Part shown: positions 7,325 through 39,103 of the stretch, one piece after another
How positions within the stretch are numbered: position 1 is the first letter of the stretch
How the letters are laid out: every line of letters begins with the position of its first letter
Notes under the pieces: generated by a model
The model's database searches: none
Seen by the model: the letters and a program-made list of their open reading frames with translations, nothing else
What the model was told of the DNA's origin: nothing
Source: an uncultured Acidobacteriia bacterium
GTDB taxonomy: Bacteria > Acidobacteriota > Terriglobia > Bryobacterales > Bryobacteraceae
DNA: 53,906 nt
Direction of reading: 5' to 3'
NCBI GenBank assembly: GCA_903851195.1
Contig: CAINNJ010000045.1
Coordinates: 1 to 53,906, forward strand
Translations under genes and position numbers: made by a program

Positions 7325-7931
7325 TTAGTCGAGTCCTGCTGTAGAAAGCTCTGAGAGCACTGGTTAAACCGACTGGCCTATGAAGTTATTCTCACTGGCG
7401 GCCGCTTGGGATATGAACCGAGGAGACGCGACTGGCCATTGTTGTCCAGGTTGTCAAGACCTATGCAGCAGAGTTCCCGACGAAATCAGTGGCGGTGGTG
7501 CGAAACCAAGTAAAGCGCGATCAAGAAGAAAAGAAATGCGACAATGCCGATTTTGTCGAAGCGCGCCCCTGCTTTCCTCTTTGCATACGCCCGCCGATTT
7601 CGCTCTCTATTGCGCATTTCGTTTTCAAGAAACTCTGATCGTGCCTGCCGATTCGACTTGTAGTTCATCCCGGAAATTATACAGAATGATCCGCCCTGTT
7701 TACGCACTATCATCGGGATCGAGCGCCAGCTTTTTCGTGCACCATTAACGCAGTGTCCGATACAGAGGGCGCATTCTCCGGACAGTGAACGTCGCTGCAC
7801 CGAGGATCATTGCAAAGGGTTGCGGCTGATTGTGAAAGTCACGTTCTGGGACGGAAGTATATTGGGATGTGGCGCACGGGGCTTCGAAGGCCGAGGCAGA
7901 TCAACAGACGGGTTGACACTGGAAGGATGTC
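7325..7931. other. 607-bp low-coding region after the RES toxin
   Basis: Apart from one possible small minus-strand gene (7486-7668), no convincing gene is present. The base composition is visibly less GC-rich than the flanks. A plus-strand stretch around 7430-7520 reads LAIVVQVVKTYAAEFPTKSV in one frame without a proper start and may be a fragment of a toxin-antitoxin-associated protein. It is too short to name. No inverted terminal repeats of an insertion sequence were found. Confidence 0.4.
7486..7668 (-). CDS. Possible small single-pass membrane protein
   Basis: A 60-residue frame from an ATG at 7668 with a highly charged N-terminal half (RNRERNRRAYAKRKAG) and one hydrophobic C-terminal segment (IGIVAFLFFLIALYLV) followed by SHHRH. 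The charge and helix pattern fits a small membrane protein with its N-terminus in the cytoplasm. There is no convincing ribosome-binding site and no family that I recognise. A longer start at 7800 is possible but adds sequence without recognisable character. The gene may not be real. Confidence 0.35.
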   Translation of the reverse strand: MNYKSNRQARSEFLENEMRNRERNRRAYAKRKAGARFDKIGIVAFLFFLIALYLVSHHRH

Positions 7932-29991: not shown

Positions 29992-30627
29992 CTATCGCGC
30001 CTGGGCGGGAAGTCGATGCCAGACCTGCGTTACAGAACGCGATTCCCGCGGCTTCGGTGTAGCCACGTAGCGACCGACCAGTTCGTCCCTGTTTTTCAGC
30101 CAGAGCTCGAAATCCACCCCGGGATACTTAACGGTAATCAAGACGAACAGGCTGCCCTGCTTCGCGCCCGCCTCGACGAAGAATTCGTTGAAAATATCCC
30201 GGGCTTCACTGGGCGTCCAGCGGGAAGTGTTGAAGACGGCGTTGAATCCAACTGGTACGGCAGCCTTGTCCGGTATTCCGCCTGTACACAAATCGTCCGC
30301 CAGACCAGACAGGCAGACTGCCGCCGGGGGGTAGGGCATTACTGTCAGAGAGCCTCCAAGTTCATCAAGGCGCGACTCCTGGATTGCCGCGCGGCTCGGT
30401 CCGCCGATTTGCAGTTGAATGATAGTTCCGTTCGGCAAGTATTCTGGCGATAACCGCTCGCCCGTTGCCGGTTCCTCAGTTTCTATTCTCCAGGTTCCAT
30501 TCAGCATTACGTTGACCTCAGGTCTCCTGACCGATGGTATGACAGCCTTCCGCTGACCGTATGCCCACGGCTCTGGCAGCAGAATCGCCGCCGCCAATGC
30601 CACCAGCAGCGCGAGTGGCGGACTCAT
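29992..30627 (-). CDS. Exported protein, candidate immunity protein to the muramidase
   Basis: A 211-residue protein with signal peptide MSPPLALLVALAAAILLPEP, hence periplasmic. The mature part is mixed alpha/beta with one Cys pair close together (AVCLSGLADDLCTGG) that could form a disulfide, and a C-terminal half ITVKYPGVDFELWLKNRDEL. I recognise no family. The ATG overlaps the muramidase stop as ATGA, so the two are translated in fixed ratio. Position after a peptidoglycan-degrading enzyme plus periplasmic targeting is the classic arrangement of an immunity protein that protects the producer's wall. That is inference. The base composition is lower in GC than neighbouring genes. Confidence 0.7.
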   Translation of the reverse strand: MSPPLALLVALAAAILLPEPWAYGQRKAVIPSVRRPEVNVMLNGTWRIETEEPATGERLSPEYLPNGTIIQLQIGGPSRAAIQESRLDELGGSLTVMPYPPAAVCLSGLADDLCTGGIPDKAAVPVGFNAVFNTSRWTPSEARDIFNEFFVEAGAKQGSLFVLITVKYPGVDFELWLKNRDELVGRYVATPKPRESRSVTQVWHRLPAQAR

Positions 30628-31745
30628 TCCACAGATTCCCCGGGCTGGGAGGTGTGTTCGTTCCAATATTCGAGTTCTTCCTTGCCTCGGCGGGAGATTA
30701 AATTATTATTGCTCTCGGTCTTCAATTCGATGGCGTTCCGTGCCGCGGCGGGATCGCCCGTGATCAGCGCATCGGCGTATTGTTGCATGTCCTTCCGCTT
30801 CTTCTTCTGAATGGAACCCTCGTGGTAGTAGGTCGAGAAGAGCACAGTTTGGTCAGTGCATGAGAGATCGTCGAACCCCTTCGCGTGCTCAATCCTGTTC
30901 TGCCAATCCTCAATCCTAGCGTCATCGGGGTTTTTTTTCTTATTTTCCTTATTAATCAAAGCCCGGCATTCGGCGATGTACTTGTCTCTCCGTGCGTCGA
31001 ACGACTTCTTTAGCGGCGCCACCCGGGACTGGAAAGCGTCCTGATCGATTTTCTGCACGTCGCCTGCGTCAAAGACCAATGGCTTATCACCTTTCAACTC
31101 GCGCAGCGCCTTACAAGCATCCGCGCCCTGCATCCCGAGCAGCGGCTTCATCTTGTCAAGTGTTACCTGCGAAACGCCGGCCTTCCTGAGCCGTTCGAGA
31201 TCTTTCGCTTTCATGGCGCCAAGGTCCACGCCGGTCCCGATTGTTACGCCAGAGTGGTTTCCCTGGGTCACGACGGGTCGCCCTTTCTTGTCCCTGCCGA
31301 TGGGCCCCCAAGGAATGTATGGCGAAAGGTAAGACCCGCCCTCTTCCTGCGAAACAAATACGGCGTCGATGCAGATCTTGTCGGTTTTCAACCCCTCAGA
31401 TACTTCTGATGAGAGCGCACAACCGTTGCCGGTCGTCCCGCCCGGGCAATCGAATGGATCGGCATCCACGCAATTTATCAGTCTGGGTTTAATGGGACAG
31501 GCCAGCACGATCTTGCCATCGATATAGGTGGTCCCCTCGCACTTCCTGCTGAGCTGCCGGAAAAGTTCCTCCTTCTCCTGAGGACTCATATGTGTCGTAC
31601 TTTTGTCAACCCACTTCTGGTCTACCTTAATCTGTTCCGCGAGCTTTTTTTCGGCTTCCTCCTCCTTACTCCGAATCTCTTCCGGCGTAGGCTTCGGGAG
31701 TCCGGACTTCTTCATCTTCGGCGGCGGCGGCTGTATTTTACTCAT
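30624..31745 (-). CDS. Pesticin/T4-lysozyme-like muramidase, likely secreted effector
   Basis: A 373-residue protein with no signal peptide. Residues 1-70 are proline- and lysine-rich and then helical (PEEIRSKEEEAEKKLAEQIK). A Cys-rich middle (about 69-125) follows. From residue ~130 the segment FVSQEEGGSYLSPYIPWGP and GNHSGVTIGTGVDLGAMKAK match the catalytic region of pesticin-like muramidases, where a Glu (134/135) is followed by the SGVTIGTGVDLG hairpin (165-176). The C-terminal lobe has TVLFSTYYHEGS and NLISRRGKEELEYW, as in phage-type lysozymes. Such domains are delivered by colicins, type VI secretion or contractile injection systems. The start at 31745 overlaps the upstream gene by eight bases; an upstream start is possible. 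Confidence 0.78.
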   Translation of the reverse strand: MSKIQPPPPKMKKSGLPKPTPEEIRSKEEEAEKKLAEQIKVDQKWVDKSTTHMSPQEKEELFRQLSRKCEGTTYIDGKIVLACPIKPRLINCVDADPFDCPGGTTGNGCALSSEVSEGLKTDKICIDAVFVSQEEGGSYLSPYIPWGPIGRDKKGRPVVTQGNHSGVTIGTGVDLGAMKAKDLERLRKAGVSQVTLDKMKPLLGMQGADACKALRELKGDKPLVFDAGDVQKIDQDAFQSRVAPLKKSFDARRDKYIAECRALINKENKKKNPDDARIEDWQNRIEHAKGFDDLSCTDQTVLFSTYYHEGSIQKKKRKDMQQYADALITGDPAAARNAIELKTESNNNLISRRGKEELEYWNEHTSQPGESVE

Positions 31746-32121
31746 GGCGCCTTTCCGTGTCCGGCGGCGCATTCCCATTCAGCCCCCAAGCCAACAATTC
31801 GAGCGCGGCCTCCTCGGCGGGCATAGCGGCAACAAAAAAATCCAGCCCCTCTCCTATCGTCAATTTCGGAATCTCGTTTTCCCAAGCGCTGAGCACCACA
31901 TGCAGCACCGCGTACGCGCAGTCGGTGTGCGGGTTCCAATATACGTCTTCCAGCTTTTGGAGCACATACTGGCTGACATCCCATGCGTCTTCGTAAGACG
32001 TTTTGGGGGCTTTTGCATAAACCCGGCGGTAAATCGCAAACCAATCCGAGATTGCCGTCAGGAAAAAGTCGTAGCGTGCCTTAGCCTCAAACACATCGAG
32101 TTGTTCCGGTCGGATAATCAC
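31738..32121 (-). CDS. Small effector-associated protein, possible adaptor or chaperone
   Basis: A 127-residue acidic protein beginning MIIRPEQLDVFEAKARYDFF. This start resembles small proteins found beside VgrG, PAAR and type VI effectors (often MxxIRxEQMxxFE...ARxxF), which are thought to help load or stabilise an effector. The rest is helical (DVSQYVLQKLEDVYWNPHTD). The family match rests on the N-terminal pattern only. Its stop codon overlaps the muramidase start (ATGAGTAA), so the three genes 32121 to 29992 form one coupled unit. No type VI structural genes lie in the window. Confidence 0.6.
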   Translation of the reverse strand: MIIRPEQLDVFEAKARYDFFLTAISDWFAIYRRVYAKAPKTSYEDAWDVSQYVLQKLEDVYWNPHTDCAYAVLHVVLSAWENEIPKLTIGEGLDFFVAAMPAEEAALELLAWGLNGNAPPDTERRHE

Positions 32122-35820: not shown

Positions 35821-36096
35821 ATGAACATATTCGAATTTGCCGCCATGCTGAAAGAAGCGACCGGGTGCGAGGTGCGGGCGTTTCAGAGTTTTCGGGAGAG
35901 GCCGGACGAGCAGCGGACGATGGAGACGATTCTGGCGGGGCACGGGACGGAAATCGATGTGGACGATTTTCTGCGGCGCGAGGTGAAGCCGGCGGGGCTG
36001 GTGGTCGCGTATCTGAATCATGAGACGGAAGTGCCGCGGGTTTATGAGATGAGCGAGGAAGTGTCGGAGAACTGGCGGCAGCGGGCGACGTCATGA
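35821..36096 (+). CDS. Small soluble protein of unknown function
   Basis: A 91-residue protein starting MNIFEFAAMLKEATGCEVRA, with a GGTGGAG site directly before the ATG. It has no signal peptide or membrane segment and ends in an acidic helical tail (RVYEMSEEVSENWRQRA). I recognise no family. It overlaps the cytochrome gene as ATGA, so the two products are coupled, which suggests a function with that cytochrome or simply shared expression. Confidence 0.75.
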   Translation: MNIFEFAAMLKEATGCEVRAFQSFRERPDEQRTMETILAGHGTEIDVDDFLRREVKPAGLVVAYLNHETEVPRVYEMSEEVSENWRQRATS

Positions 36097-36413
36097 GGGG
36101 GATGATTTTGGGGGCTCTGGTCGCTTTGGTCGGTGCGGCGGCGGGGGAACAGAAGCCGGATGCTTCGAAGGGTAATGAGACGTTCGATGAGCAGTGCAGT
36201 TCGTGTCATTACGCGGATCGTATCGACGATAAGGTGGGGCCGGGTTTGAAGTGGCTCTACAGCAAGGGCAAGCTGGATGCGAACGGGAAGCCGGTGAATG
36301 ACGCGAATGTGCTCGGGATGATTAACCGGGGCGGGAAACAAATGCCTGCGTTTAAAAACACGCTTACGGAAGAAGATAAGAGTAATTTACTGGCATATTT
36401 GAAGACGCTCTGA
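36093..36413 (+). CDS. Small c-type cytochrome
   Basis: A 106-residue monohaem cytochrome c. The first ~20 residues (MRGMILGALVALVGAAAG) are a signal peptide for Sec export. CSSCH at about residues 35-39 binds haem covalently, and the Met in NRGGKQMPAF is the likely sixth ligand. KVGPGLKWLYSKGKL and EEDKSNLLAYLKTL are typical class I segments. It would carry electrons in the periplasm, partner unknown. Its 3' third has a decayed copy at 38564-38682, showing that this gene was once part of a duplicated segment. Confidence 0.92.
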   Translation: MRGMILGALVALVGAAAGEQKPDASKGNETFDEQCSSCHYADRIDDKVGPGLKWLYSKGKLDANGKPVNDANVLGMINRGGKQMPAFKNTLTEEDKSNLLAYLKTL

Positions 36414-36491
36414 GCGTGCTGAAATAAAAACGACATAAATTGCCGTTGCGTGGCTTTTTGATCAATAATACCCGGTGAATCGGTGATTTTA

Positions 36492-36520
36492 TTGACATTA
36501 TTCCTGCCGTGTAGTACCTT
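36492..36520 (+). promoter_or_regulatory. Promoter of the first PEP-CTERM gene, leaderless arrangement
   Basis: TTGACA (36492-36497), a 17-bp spacer and TACCTT (36515-36520) lie only six bases before the ATG at 36527, so the transcript would begin at or next to the start codon. There is no Shine-Dalgarno sequence before the ATG. The same layout is kept at 37543-37571 in front of the paralog. The upstream block AATACCCGGT is conserved in both. Confidence 0.6.
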
Positions 36521-36526
36521 TCAGCG

Positions 36527-37150
36527 ATGAATATCACAGCGACGCGCCTCGCTCTGGCCGCATTTTTTTTGGCGTCGGCGGTTATTCCGCCGGCCCGTGC
36601 AGGCACCATTTTTGACAACACATCCGCTTCGGCAGACGATTATTGGATTTGCTCGGGCGGCGCGCCCTGCGGTCAGGCGTTTACGACCGTCGCGGCGGGC
36701 GAGACTGTCACGGGAGTGGCGCTGGACGTTTCTGATGTCACTACCCCAAGCGCGATCCATATCGATTTGTACTCCGACAGCGGTTCGAGTTTGCTCGGGA
36801 CCAGGATTGGGCAACTCGGAACCATCTCACCCAGTTCCGGTACAAACTCGGCCGGTTTGGTGGTTGTGACGCTGACCGGCAATCCTGTCCTGGCGCCAAA
36901 CACGAGGTACTGGATCGTTTTCGCTCCAACGGATGGCGGCGCCGTGTGGAAATCCACGTATCAGTTATCCGATGCCAATTTGTTTTACACCGATAGTGGC
37001 TCCATAACATACTCCGCGGAGAACTACATCATGAGTGTTACGGGCACGGAAGCCTCAGCCACACCCGAGCCCGCGACTTTTGCCGGTTGTCTGGTGGCAG
37101 CCGGAATGGCAGCCGTTTTTGGACGGCGCCGCTTCCATTCAGCGCGTTAA
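36527..37150 (+). CDS. PEP-CTERM protein, first paralog
   Basis: A 207-residue exported protein. MNITATRLALAAFFLASAVI is the signal peptide, ending near PPARAG. The mature beta-rich domain (TIFDNTSASADDYWICSGGA onward) has a Cys pair near its start. The C-terminus TPEPATFAGCLVAAGMAAVF followed by GRRRF is a PEP-CTERM sorting signal: Pro-Glu-Pro, a hydrophobic helix and basic residues, recognised by exosortase. No exosortase gene is in the window. The central domain resembles choice-of-anchor/GSxxL-type beta sandwiches (YSDSGSSLLGTRIGQLGTIS). The paralog at 37578-38219 is nearly identical at both ends and differs in the middle. Confidence 0.92.
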   Translation: MNITATRLALAAFFLASAVIPPARAGTIFDNTSASADDYWICSGGAPCGQAFTTVAAGETVTGVALDVSDVTTPSAIHIDLYSDSGSSLLGTRIGQLGTISPSSGTNSAGLVVVTLTGNPVLAPNTRYWIVFAPTDGGAVWKSTYQLSDANLFYTDSGSITYSAENYIMSVTGTEASATPEPATFAGCLVAAGMAAVFGRRRFHSAR

Positions 37151-37174
37151 ATTCCAAAAGCTTTAACACGGCAG

Positions 37175-37225
37175 CAGGCCGGTTCCGGAACTGCGTGAAA
37201 GACCGCAATGTCCGGAACCGGCCTG
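37175..37225 (+). terminator. Perfect 15-bp hairpin after the first PEP-CTERM gene
   Basis: CAGGCCGGTTCCGGA (37175-37189) and TCCGGAACCGGCCTG (37211-37225) are exact inverted repeats around a 21-base loop. There is no T-tract after it, so it may act as a transcript-stabilising or Rho-assisted end and not as a classical intrinsic terminator. A diverged version follows the paralog. Confidence 0.5.
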
Positions 37226-37265
37226 TCTGAACTGAAGGCGCCCGGCGCGGAATGCAAAAAAGTGC

Positions 37266-37512
37266 GGATTTTATCGATTACTCGGTTCTTTATCACGGGC
37301 AATCGACGGGGGCGGGTCCGGCGGTCAGGAGTTTACGACTGCCGGGGCGAGCGGGACGCTCACGGGAGTGACACCGGATCCTGGCGGCTTTGGCAGCCTG
37401 GCGGGGGTCAACGTGGATTCGTACTCGGGCCGAGCCCGCGAATTTCGCCGGTTGTCCGGTGGCCGCGGGAATCGCAGCCGTTTTTGGACGGCGCCGCTTT
37501 ATCGGTTTTTGA
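37266..37512 (+). pseudogene. Decayed PEP-CTERM gene copy
   Basis: The segment resembles parts of the flanking PEP-CTERM genes: GGTCAGGAGTTTACGACTGC corresponds to GGTCAGGCGTTTACGACCG, and the end reads PANFAGCPVAAGIAAVFGRR, matching the sorting signal of the intact copies. The start codon and signal peptide are lost and the middle is deleted. It directly precedes the promoter of the second intact gene. Confidence 0.8.
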
Positions 37513-37542
37513 TTAGTAATACCCGGTAAAGCGGTGAATTTA

Positions 37543-37571
37543 TTGACATTATTCCTGCCATATGATACTTT
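37543..37571 (+). promoter_or_regulatory. Promoter of the second PEP-CTERM gene, leaderless arrangement
   Basis: TTGACA (37543-37548), 17 bp, TACTTT (37566-37571), then six bases to the ATG at 37578. The spacing is identical to that of the first copy, and there is again no Shine-Dalgarno sequence. The sequence between the boxes is conserved (TTATTCCTGCC). Confidence 0.6.
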
Positions 37572-37577
37572 CCCAAA

Positions 37578-38219
37578 ATGAATATCACAGCGTCGCGGCT
37601 CGCTCTGGCCGCATTTTTTTTGGCGTCGGCGGTTATTCCGCCGGCCCGCGCAGGCACCATTTTCGACAACACATCCGCTTCAGCGGACGATAATTGGGAG
37701 TGCTACGGCGTCGGGCAGCCCTGCGGTCAGGCGTTTACGACCGGCACGGCGGGCGAGACGGTCACGGGAGTGGCGCTGGACCTTTATCTGAACCCTGATA
37801 ACGGCGACACTACCCCAAGCGCGATCCATGTCGATTGGTACTCCGACAGCGGTTCGAGTTTGCTCGGGACCAGGATTGGGCAACTCGGAACCATCTCACC
37901 CGGTTCCGTTCCAGCCTCGTCCGGTTTGGTGAGTGTGACGCTGACCGCCAATCCGGTCCTGGCGCCAAACACGAGGTACTGGATCGTTCTCACTGCAGTG
38001 GACGGCGACGTCAACTGGGACTCCACGTATCAGTTATCCGACGCCGATTTGTTTTACACCAATGGTAGCGACATAACATACTCCGCGGAAAACTACATCA
38101 TGAGTGTTGTGGGCACGGAAGCCTCGCCCACACCTGAGCCCGCGACTTTTGCCGGTTGTCTGGTGGCAGCCGGAATGGCAGCCGTTTTTGGACGGCGCCG
38201 CTTCAAAGCAATGCGGTAG
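37578..38219 (+). CDS. PEP-CTERM protein, second paralog
   Basis: A 213-residue paralog of the protein at 36527-37150, with almost the same signal peptide and the sorting signal TPEPATFAGCLVAAGMAAVF followed by GRRRF. It differs by a few insertions (for example NPDNGDTTPSAIHVDWY) and substitutions in the central sandwich, with the Cys pair kept (WECYGVGQPCGQ). The two signal-peptide ends are more alike than the middles, which indicates recent duplication followed by divergence or gene conversion. It would be exported and processed by exosortase; its surface role is unknown. Confidence 0.92.
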   Translation: MNITASRLALAAFFLASAVIPPARAGTIFDNTSASADDNWECYGVGQPCGQAFTTGTAGETVTGVALDLYLNPDNGDTTPSAIHVDWYSDSGSSLLGTRIGQLGTISPGSVPASSGLVSVTLTANPVLAPNTRYWIVLTAVDGDVNWDSTYQLSDADLFYTNGSDITYSAENYIMSVVGTEASPTPEPATFAGCLVAAGMAAVFGRRRFKAMR

Positions 38220-38243
38220 AACCACTCCGTTTCCAATTGGCGG

Positions 38244-38292
38244 CAGGCCGGGGCGGGAATTGCGTGAGTACCGCATGTTCCGAACCGGCCTG
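38244..38292 (+). repeat. Diverged hairpin after the second PEP-CTERM gene
   Basis: CAGGCCGGGGCGGGA (38244-38258) and TTCCGAACCGGCCTG (38278-38292) are imperfect inverted repeats with a loop similar to that at 37190-37210. This is the paralogous copy of the perfect hairpin at 37175-37225, with the inner stem decayed. Confidence 0.5.
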
Positions 38293-38450
38293 ACTGGTTT
38301 CGAAGCACCCGGCGAATAACGAAACAAAGGCAGTGACTCTATCGATAAGCCGTCGCATATCGACAGATTTTTGGAATTATTCGTTCCCGCGCGCTTTCAA
38401 CAATAAATTACAGTGCCCGGTTCGCTTCCGACAAGGTTTTCGTGCATCAG

Positions 38451-38682
38451 GGATTATGCCGCCGGCCATCCGGGCGTAAATTTTGACAATATTTCTGCTT
38501 CGGCAGACGATCCCCGCCGCGAGGGAATCAAGGGCTGCGCACGCGGCACGGGCTCCGGCAGAGCCAAACTGGACGCGAACGGCAAGCCCGGGATTGGTGC
38601 GAATATGCTCGGGATGATGAACCGGGGCGGGAAGCGGATGCCCTGGTTTCAGAGCACGGTTACCGGATTCCTGAAAACGCCT
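38451..38682 (+). pseudogene. Chimeric remnant: PEP-CTERM start joined to cytochrome c end
   Basis: Positions 38451-38511 resemble the signal-peptide/early mature region of the PEP-CTERM genes (ATTATGCCGCCGGCC, then VNFDNISASADD). Positions 38564-38682 resemble the C-terminal third of the small cytochrome (KLDANGKPGIGANMLGMMNR and GGKRMPWF against the intact GGKQMPAF). The haem motif is absent. The order is explained by a tandem cytochrome/PEP-CTERM array with a deletion between the two parts. Confidence 0.75.
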
Positions 38683-39103
38683 TGCAGATTAGCGAGATTG
38701 GCAGGCCGACCAGGAGCACGACGGCGAGGACTCCGTTGACGAAGGGCCAGCCGAAGAAGGCTGGCTGTCCGGCTTTCGAGAGCAGCAGGACGATCAGGTT
38801 CATGAAGGCATAGACTCCCGCGCCGTAAAGCAGGCCGGAGATGATGGCGTGTTGCCGGGCGAAGGGGAGGCGGCGGCTGATCAGAAAGAAAAGGATTGTT
38901 GCGGTGAAGGCGATCAGGTAGTGCAGCGCGGCGCCGAGTAGGGCGGTTTTCGCGCCGCCCTGGAAGGACGCGCGACCGAGCAGACCGGCGGCGATGGATT
39001 GCAGGATTCGCACGGGGCTGACGCCGCGGAAGCCGTAGAAGATGAAGGCGTCGAGGATGTCGAGAGTCCCGGCGATCAGGCCGGCGGTGAGGATGGCGCG
39101 CAT
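38660..39103 (-). CDS. Four-helix membrane protein of unknown function
   Basis: A 147-residue inner-membrane protein with about four hydrophobic segments: MRAILTAGLIAGTLDILDAF, GAALHYLIAFTATILFFLIS, IISGLLYGAGVYAFMNLIVL and NGVLAVVLLVGLPISLI. The segment GVSPVRILQSIAAGLLGRAS recurs in an uncharacterised family of small membrane proteins in soil bacteria. It lies just downstream of the S9 peptidase gene (7 bp gap), so it may be in the same transcript. Its 3' end overlaps the chimeric remnant on the other strand. Confidence 0.8.
   Translation of the reverse strand: MRAILTAGLIAGTLDILDAFIFYGFRGVSPVRILQSIAAGLLGRASFQGGAKTALLGAALHYLIAFTATILFFLISRRLPFARQHAIISGLLYGAGVYAFMNLIVLLLSKAGQPAFFGWPFVNGVLAVVLLVGLPISLICKAFSGIR

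Follow-up and report, generated by a model that had tools for sequence, protein, structure and literature searches.

A putative orphan type VI secretion cargo cassette built around a pesticin-type muramidase in an uncultured acidobacterium

What is a muramidase gene doing between the genes of a small cytosolic protein and an exported-type protein, in a chromosomal setting with no secretion gene beside it? The question is raised by three genes at positions 29,992 to 32,121 of contig CAINNJ010000045.1 (GenBank assembly GCA_903851195.1) from an uncultured Acidobacteriia bacterium; the window analysed here is this whole stretch of 53,906 nucleotides. An earlier, sequence-only reading had described the three genes as a coupled adaptor, muramidase and immunity cassette. 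The follow-up indicates that the cassette is probably an orphan type VI secretion system (T6SS) cargo unit, comprising a loading helper, a peptidoglycan hydrolase and a periplasmic immunity protein.

The proposed layout holds in coordinates, strand and overlaps: all three genes lie on the minus strand, the first two overlapping by 8 bases and the last two by 4. The first gene (32121–31738, minus strand, GTG start) codes for a 127 residue cytosolic protein, the putative T6SS effector-loading helper. The second (31745–30624, minus strand, ATG start) codes for a 373 residue muramidase with no evident signal sequence, in which ~125 N-terminal residues of no assigned fold precede a pesticin-type lysozyme domain. 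The third (30627–29992, minus strand, ATG start) codes for a 211 residue exported-type protein with two cysteines (C105 and C114), the putative periplasmic immunity protein.

The enzyme is the most readily identified of the three products. The Pfam profile PF16754 (Pesticin) matches it at E 1.9e-16 and 60.8 bits, relative to a cut-off of 25.8 bits, over residues 137–327 of a 384 residue frame. Its catalytic-type residues Glu135, Thr168 and Asp174 align with pesticin residues reported as important, namely E178, T201 and D207; in the accessible part of that report, the Asp matching D207 is also required for toxicity of a T6SS effector (PMC9927483). An alignment of 34 domains was assembled from the window and 33 loci chosen out of 80, without L086. 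All 34 domains keep the Thr and Asp, and 33 keep the Glu; the sole exception is the N-terminally shortened domain of locus L040. Export was judged throughout from hydropathy only (15-residue Kyte-Doolittle means), and on this measure the muramidase lacks a hydrophobic N-terminus (highest mean 1.41, at residue 79); the ~125 residues before the lysozyme domain are likewise free of any membrane stretch. Compared with their counterpart in loci L018 and L019, these N-terminal residues score 6.6 bits, where the best of 1000 shuffles reaches 6.0; the comparison with L035 is equalled or beaten by 7 of 1000 shuffles. The profile match, the three residues and the absence of a hydrophobic N-terminus support the earlier description of a signal-less, pesticin-type muramidase with its catalytic Glu, and the protein is assigned to this class by sequence, with peptidoglycan cleavage as its predicted activity.

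The same arrangement is found elsewhere. Scanning genomes with the domain alignment gave 117 stretches, of which 95 were confirmed and 80 loci kept, and the cassette layout recurs in three Pseudomonadota genomes. In Massilia aquatica (L035), genes for VgrG, PAAR, DUF4123, a 121 residue protein, a 373 residue muramidase and a 215 residue exported-type protein stand in a row. A Lysobacteraceae metagenome-assembled genome (L018) has a VgrG-like piece (E 1.2e-4), PAAR, DUF4123, a 136 residue protein, a 422 residue muramidase and an exported-type protein, and a Methylococcaceae metagenome-assembled genome (L027) has a 125 residue protein, a 254 residue muramidase and a 255 residue exported-type protein. 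The muramidase gene is thus directly linked to PAAR and DUF4123 in L018 and L035, whereas no such link exists beside the window cassette. Of the 80 fetched pesticin loci, 14 contain T6SS markers, among them two VgrG-pesticin fusions (L060 and L096), and TssC is present in six of nine genomes tested, namely the cassette's own and those of L018, L027, L035, L020 and L094.

Muramidase phylogeny places the window near two of these cassettes. In a tree of 79 rows, from which L035 and L085 were dropped as short domain matches, the window groups with L018, L019 and L040 (support 97/95). In a selection of 31 rows to which L035 was added by hand, the window, L018, L019, L035 and L040 form one side of a branch (93/94). 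The survey also yielded two loci of separate note. At L094:5704–7487, in a Terriglobia (Acidobacteriota) metagenome-assembled genome, a pesticin-type muramidase gene is followed by a gene with an LprI lysozyme-inhibitor domain (5.7e-9), a pair that on its domain content is a different immunity solution. At L040:5926–7226, a second Ottowia locus, the muramidase frame is shortened and the exported partner is split over two frames, and the locus is probably decayed.

The genome that carries the cassette also carries a T6SS cluster, at ~356–387 kb of contig C64. By Pfam, the cluster contains VgrG, a ClpV-like ATPase, TssG, TssF, TssE (gp25), Hcp, TssC, TssB, PAAR, DUF4123, two TssK and TssL, and genes for TssA, TssM and FHA were named by reading only. 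One block within it (G000:C64:375854–371885) codes in order for DUF4123, PAAR, a 116 residue protein, a 578 residue putative effector and a 263 residue protein, so that a small gene sits between PAAR and the putative effector. Two of these proteins have relatives in other loci: the 578 residue protein is related to the 443 residue product of the gene after the small gene of L109 (E 2.7e-8), and the 263 residue protein to a 307 residue one encoded behind the L114 effector (E 3.8e-12). The sequence-only reading had left the delivery route open among an orphan type VI system, contractile injection and other systems; the C64 cluster, together with PAAR and DUF4123 upstream in L018 and L035, now shifts the balance mostly to T6SS. 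Two further features of the cluster were observed. A gene for a 228 residue protein with a Phage_lysozyme domain (PF00959, 3.7e-6) at L003:5369–6819 (G000:C64:370369–371819) runs against a gene for a 257 residue exported-type protein, which weakly fits the type-A immunity profile discussed below (6.6 bits, 0 of 1000 shuffles), and the two probably form a second pair of wall hydrolase and immunity protein. The two TssK genes (PF05936 twice) lie at L003:11601–15914.

The small protein is harder to place. It has no membrane-like stretch (highest 15-residue mean 1.18) and matches no Pfam or NCBIfam family above cut-off; phosphoglyceromutase, its best NCBIfam match, was set aside at 19.1 bits relative to a cut-off of 366. 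Its gene sits directly before the muramidase gene, as do the small genes in L018, L027 and L035, and the small gene of the own-genome T6SS cluster likewise sits directly before the putative effector gene. An unnamed small-protein family of T6SS loci was defined from the own-genome 116 residue protein and proteins of L027, L108, L109, L110 and L112. Residues 1–36 of the 127 residue protein fit the profile of this family in register and start to start (6.2 bits with eight members). Among 1000 shuffles, 3, 5 and 1 score as high with the five-, six- and eight-member profiles, respectively; the 116 residue protein fits the five-member profile at 31.5 bits (0 of 1000 shuffles). Family members adjoin VgrG and DUF4123 in genomes G603 and G570, and directly precede a putative effector in G603, G554 and G299. 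Based on gene position and the N-terminal match, the 127 residue protein is proposed to be a T6SS effector-loading helper (adaptor or chaperone).

This family is sparsely recovered by similarity. Its profile recognises members in 2 of the 80 pesticin loci, L027 (itself a profile row) and L028 (away from the muramidase). Searches with the 127 residue, 116 residue and L018 small proteins each returned one clear match, to the query itself, and the weaker matches of the latter two sit in or against unrelated genes. The L027 small protein did find genuine relatives; one of its matches (L111, E 0.003) was dropped, having a stop codon inside the match and no T6SS gene seen nearby. No match was returned by tblastn of the 116 residue and L027 small proteins against plasmids. 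Two variants of the family were also encountered. L028:1110–2579 (Thiomargarita) contains two small-family open reading frames (ORFs) (E 3.6e-10 and 2.2e-4) away from the pesticin-type gene, and at L116:6013–6933 a small-protein domain runs in-frame into a long Ala/Pro/Glu-rich extension (306 residues in total) behind VgrG and DUF4123.

The third gene occupies the place of an immunity gene, as had been noted from the sequence. It overlaps the muramidase gene, and its product has a strongly hydrophobic N-terminus (15-residue mean 2.49 at residue 4). From the ATG, no Lys or Arg precedes the hydrophobic stretch; translation from a TTG 39 bases further upstream would include some of these residues. 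The protein matches no Pfam or NCBIfam family above cut-off, and the same is true of the small and exported proteins of L018, L027 and L035 and of the exported protein of L019. The exported proteins behind the muramidases of L018, L019, L035 and L040 are here called type-C immunity. The window protein and the downstream proteins of L018, L019 and L035 have in common a GT[WYF] motif (GTW in the window), two cysteines and a C-terminal strand pattern, and the window muramidase groups in the trees with muramidases whose exported partner has this GTW/two-cysteine pattern, a concordance independent of the partner score. A profile of the L018 and L019 proteins gives the L035 protein 2.1 bits (5 of 1000 shuffles). 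Type-C partners occur in 4 of the 80 loci (L018, L019, L035 and L040; the profile consists of the window and three of these four), and type-A partners within the fetched stretch of 31, including the fusions L060 and L096; the window protein obtains no score with the type-A profile. Among 274 genomes from the class to which the L035 genome belongs, an immunity-profile search matched only the L035 genome itself, and tblastn of the L018 exported protein against plasmids gave no match. Homologs of the third gene away from any wall hydrolase were looked for and none was found, but few homologs exist. The 211 residue protein is proposed to act as a periplasmic immunity protein against the muramidase. 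The earlier reading had recognised neither the pairing nor the immunity-like family: the layout now recurs in three other genomes, and the putative immunity partner still has no Pfam or NCBIfam match above cut-off.

The cassette appears to be a newcomer in its lineage. At E ≤ 0.001, a search of 297 phylum genomes returned the muramidase from one, its own; a search of 121 genomes found it in two, its own and, as a weak match (E 0.006), a same-family genome; and the 18 same-genus genomes listed gave no match. In two same-genus genomes inspected, the block up to an MFS gene is conserved and is then followed by other genes. These observations fit acquisition of the cassette at a variable site, and they uphold the transfer proposed from the sequence. 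The base composition on which that proposal had drawn is less distinctive. The cassette genes have a G+C content of 54.7, 54.8 and 58.8% (the last two values being those of the longest ORFs picked there), all under the window median of 62.2%, and rank second, third and ninth lowest among 43 picked ORFs. However, the lowest value (50.4%) belongs to the ORF at 7380–7748, away from the cassette, and low G+C is therefore not specific to it.

Taken as a T6SS cargo unit, the cassette could operate as follows. The non-exported 127 residue helper would carry the muramidase to the spike (VgrG-PAAR) of the C64 T6SS. The muramidase, which shows no signal-like N-terminus, would reach the periplasm of neighbouring Gram-negative cells by injection. 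There its lysozyme-like domain (Glu135, Thr168, Asp174) would cut the glycan strands of peptidoglycan and cause lysis. In the producer's periplasm, the exported 211 residue protein would block enzyme arriving from sister cells. The unit was probably gained recently, downstream of a conserved chromosomal block.

Several results weigh against this reading. First, no VgrG or PAAR gene adjoins the cassette, and the T6SS cluster lies on a separate contig. As already remarked, no VgrG, PAAR or tail gene is seen near the cassette, an observation from the ORFs read there and not from a profile scan of the entire window, and the genome's only PAAR match is on another contig. Second, 66 of the 80 fetched pesticin loci have no nearby T6SS marker, TssC was not found in three of the nine genomes tested with pesticin loci (L019, L023 and L029), and related pesticin domains also occur in phages, with matches in 8 phage records. 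Third, the window muramidase sits on a long branch in each of the two trees, so the grouping counts as support and not as proof. Fourth, the L018+L019 profile gives the window's exported protein 1.2 bits, a score near noise that 4 of 1000 shuffles reach, and an AlphaFold model of the immunity protein from four alignment rows, mostly strands, has a pLDDT of 46 and a pTM of 0.44, too poor for any fold to be taken from it as evidence. Fifth, the comparison of the 127 residue protein with the small family over its whole length is null: 508 of 1000 shuffles reach the pairwise score, and the corresponding counts are 189 for L018, 287 for L035, and 929, 890, 716 and 186 for four unrelated control segments. 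An own-genome search with the family profile at E ≤ 1 finds the C64 copy only and misses the 127 residue protein. The L018 and L035 small proteins, placed in the family by gene position, fit it weakly as well: with the five-member profile, 9 and 22 of 1000 shuffles reach their scores, and with the six-member profile, 2 and 63.

The fifth point bears on the best-placed alternative, that the muramidase is a T6SS effector and the 127 residue protein is something else, for instance another immunity protein, acting in the cytosol, or the product of an unrelated gene, that resembles a helper by position only. Since it has no whole-length match and the own-genome profile search misses it, the protein is not counted as a member of the family; the adaptor claim is lowered for the whole-length result, and the helper role rests on gene order and the N-terminus. 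Of the sequence-only reading, a small protein in a position typical of T6SS loci is supported; the match to the helper family covers the N-terminus. The start-to-start match of the N-terminus, the equal size class and the shared location, immediately ahead of the effector as in L018, L027, L035 and the own T6SS cluster, nevertheless argue for a helper, and we regard the alternative as unlikely while giving it real weight.

The remaining alternatives concern the whole cassette. It could be an effector-immunity pair of another contractile or contact system, such as an extracellular contractile injection system (eCIS) or a tailocin, with the 127 residue protein as its loading factor. The lack of adjoining T6SS genes, the pesticin domains in phage records and the many toxins that eCIS loci are reported to carry, in the portion of the source available (PMC8213781), are compatible with this. 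However, PAAR and DUF4123 genes immediately precede two parallel cassettes, and the cassette's own genome has a complete-looking T6SS cluster, which makes such a system improbable. A self-acting enzyme of cell-wall remodelling with a regulating inhibitor, rather than a weapon, is less probable still: an enzyme with an adjacent exported inhibitor would also suit wall turnover, but this one has no signal-like N-terminus, its distribution is patchy (1 of 297 phylum genomes, 0 of 18 same-genus genomes), and its tree neighbours L018 and L035 adjoin T6SS spike genes. Least probable is a remnant phage or tailocin lysis cassette (holin-like small protein, endolysin, spanin-like third gene), which draws on the three overlapping genes, the phage-lysozyme-related enzyme, a PHROG 24780 match at 7.5e-5 and the 8 phage records, but is countered by a 127 residue protein without a membrane-like stretch, a third protein that is 211 residues long and of exported type, neighbouring ORFs among which no phage structural gene was seen (by reading only), and a layout that recurs beside PAAR and DUF4123.

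The cassette is flanked on the left by an MFS transporter gene, itself behind a ThiF-rhodanese gene, and on the right by a gene for a large outer-membrane barrel protein with a carboxypeptidase-regulatory-like domain. Promoter-like sites (2, with 1.3 expected) and terminator-like sites (6, with 3.5 expected, standard deviation 1.9) are near chance. Further along, 36093–38739 holds tandem near-duplicates, including exported-type ORFs at 36527–37150 and 37578–38219 with nearly identical N-termini and similar pieces at 36093–36413 and 38413–38739.

If the reading as a T6SS cargo unit is extended beyond this locus, the small proteins may be uncatalogued, highly divergent, effector-specific T6SS helpers that act beside DUF4123 adaptors, the three-gene unit of helper, effector and immunity protein may plug into the resident T6SS of another phylum, and the exported partners may constitute a previously unnamed family of immunity proteins directed at pesticin-type muramidases, perhaps built as a lipocalin-like barrel. 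We put this wider proposal forward tentatively and consider it doubtful as a whole; the possible lipocalin likeness is suggested by the GTW first strand and the strand-rich, low-confidence model. Work on the cassette could name two families at once, one of immunity proteins and one of helpers. Were the small protein a dedicated loader, such orphan units would show how a T6SS can gain a weapon without a new spike.

No published description of this cassette was found in a literature search of partial coverage, with subscription journals mostly outside it. The kind of enzyme is already known, as pesticin-type T6SS effectors have been described; the putative helper and the exported partner, judged by their sequences, match no catalogued Pfam or NCBIfam family above cut-off. 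In the papers found, as far as their text was available, such effectors come from Pseudomonadota, whereas the present one is acidobacterial and probably a recent arrival. Known small genes that precede an effector and have been proposed to load it onto the spike include DUF4123, DUF1795 (Eag) and DUF2169 adaptors (PMC10673891, PMC13373197, both seen in part). The window's small gene has the same place, but its product matches none of these three families in Pfam. Because in L018, L035 and L114 the small gene adjoins a DUF4123 gene, the small protein would be an additional factor. The own C64 block resembles the cassette in its order of small gene, putative effector gene and third gene, and differs in having its own PAAR and DUF4123; its 578 residue protein shows no Pfam domain and hence no pesticin domain.

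Among pesticin-type systems, the available part of the description of WHIX T6SS effectors, which covers 448 WHIX proteins (PMC12135965), includes pesticin lysozyme-like domains with neighbouring exported immunity-like genes, as in the cassette. These effectors carry a WHIX export domain, whereas the window enzyme has ~125 residues before its lysozyme domain, a contrast drawn by length alone. A pesticin-like gene between two VgrG genes has been noted in plant-beneficial bacteria, in what could be seen of that report (PMC9022076). A further close parallel is VgrG3cp-TsiV3cp of Vibrio cholerae (PMC9927483, seen in part), a T6SS-delivered pesticin-type muramidase with the immunity gene directly downstream and the pesticin Thr and Asp conserved. 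The window's exported partner does not fit the type-A family, members of which lie behind the VgrG-pesticin fusions L060 and L096, a comparison made with the type-A profile and not with TsiV3cp itself. In VgrG3cp the domain is fused to VgrG, whereas the window muramidase is a free, putative cargo protein behind the 127 residue gene and conserves the Glu as well.

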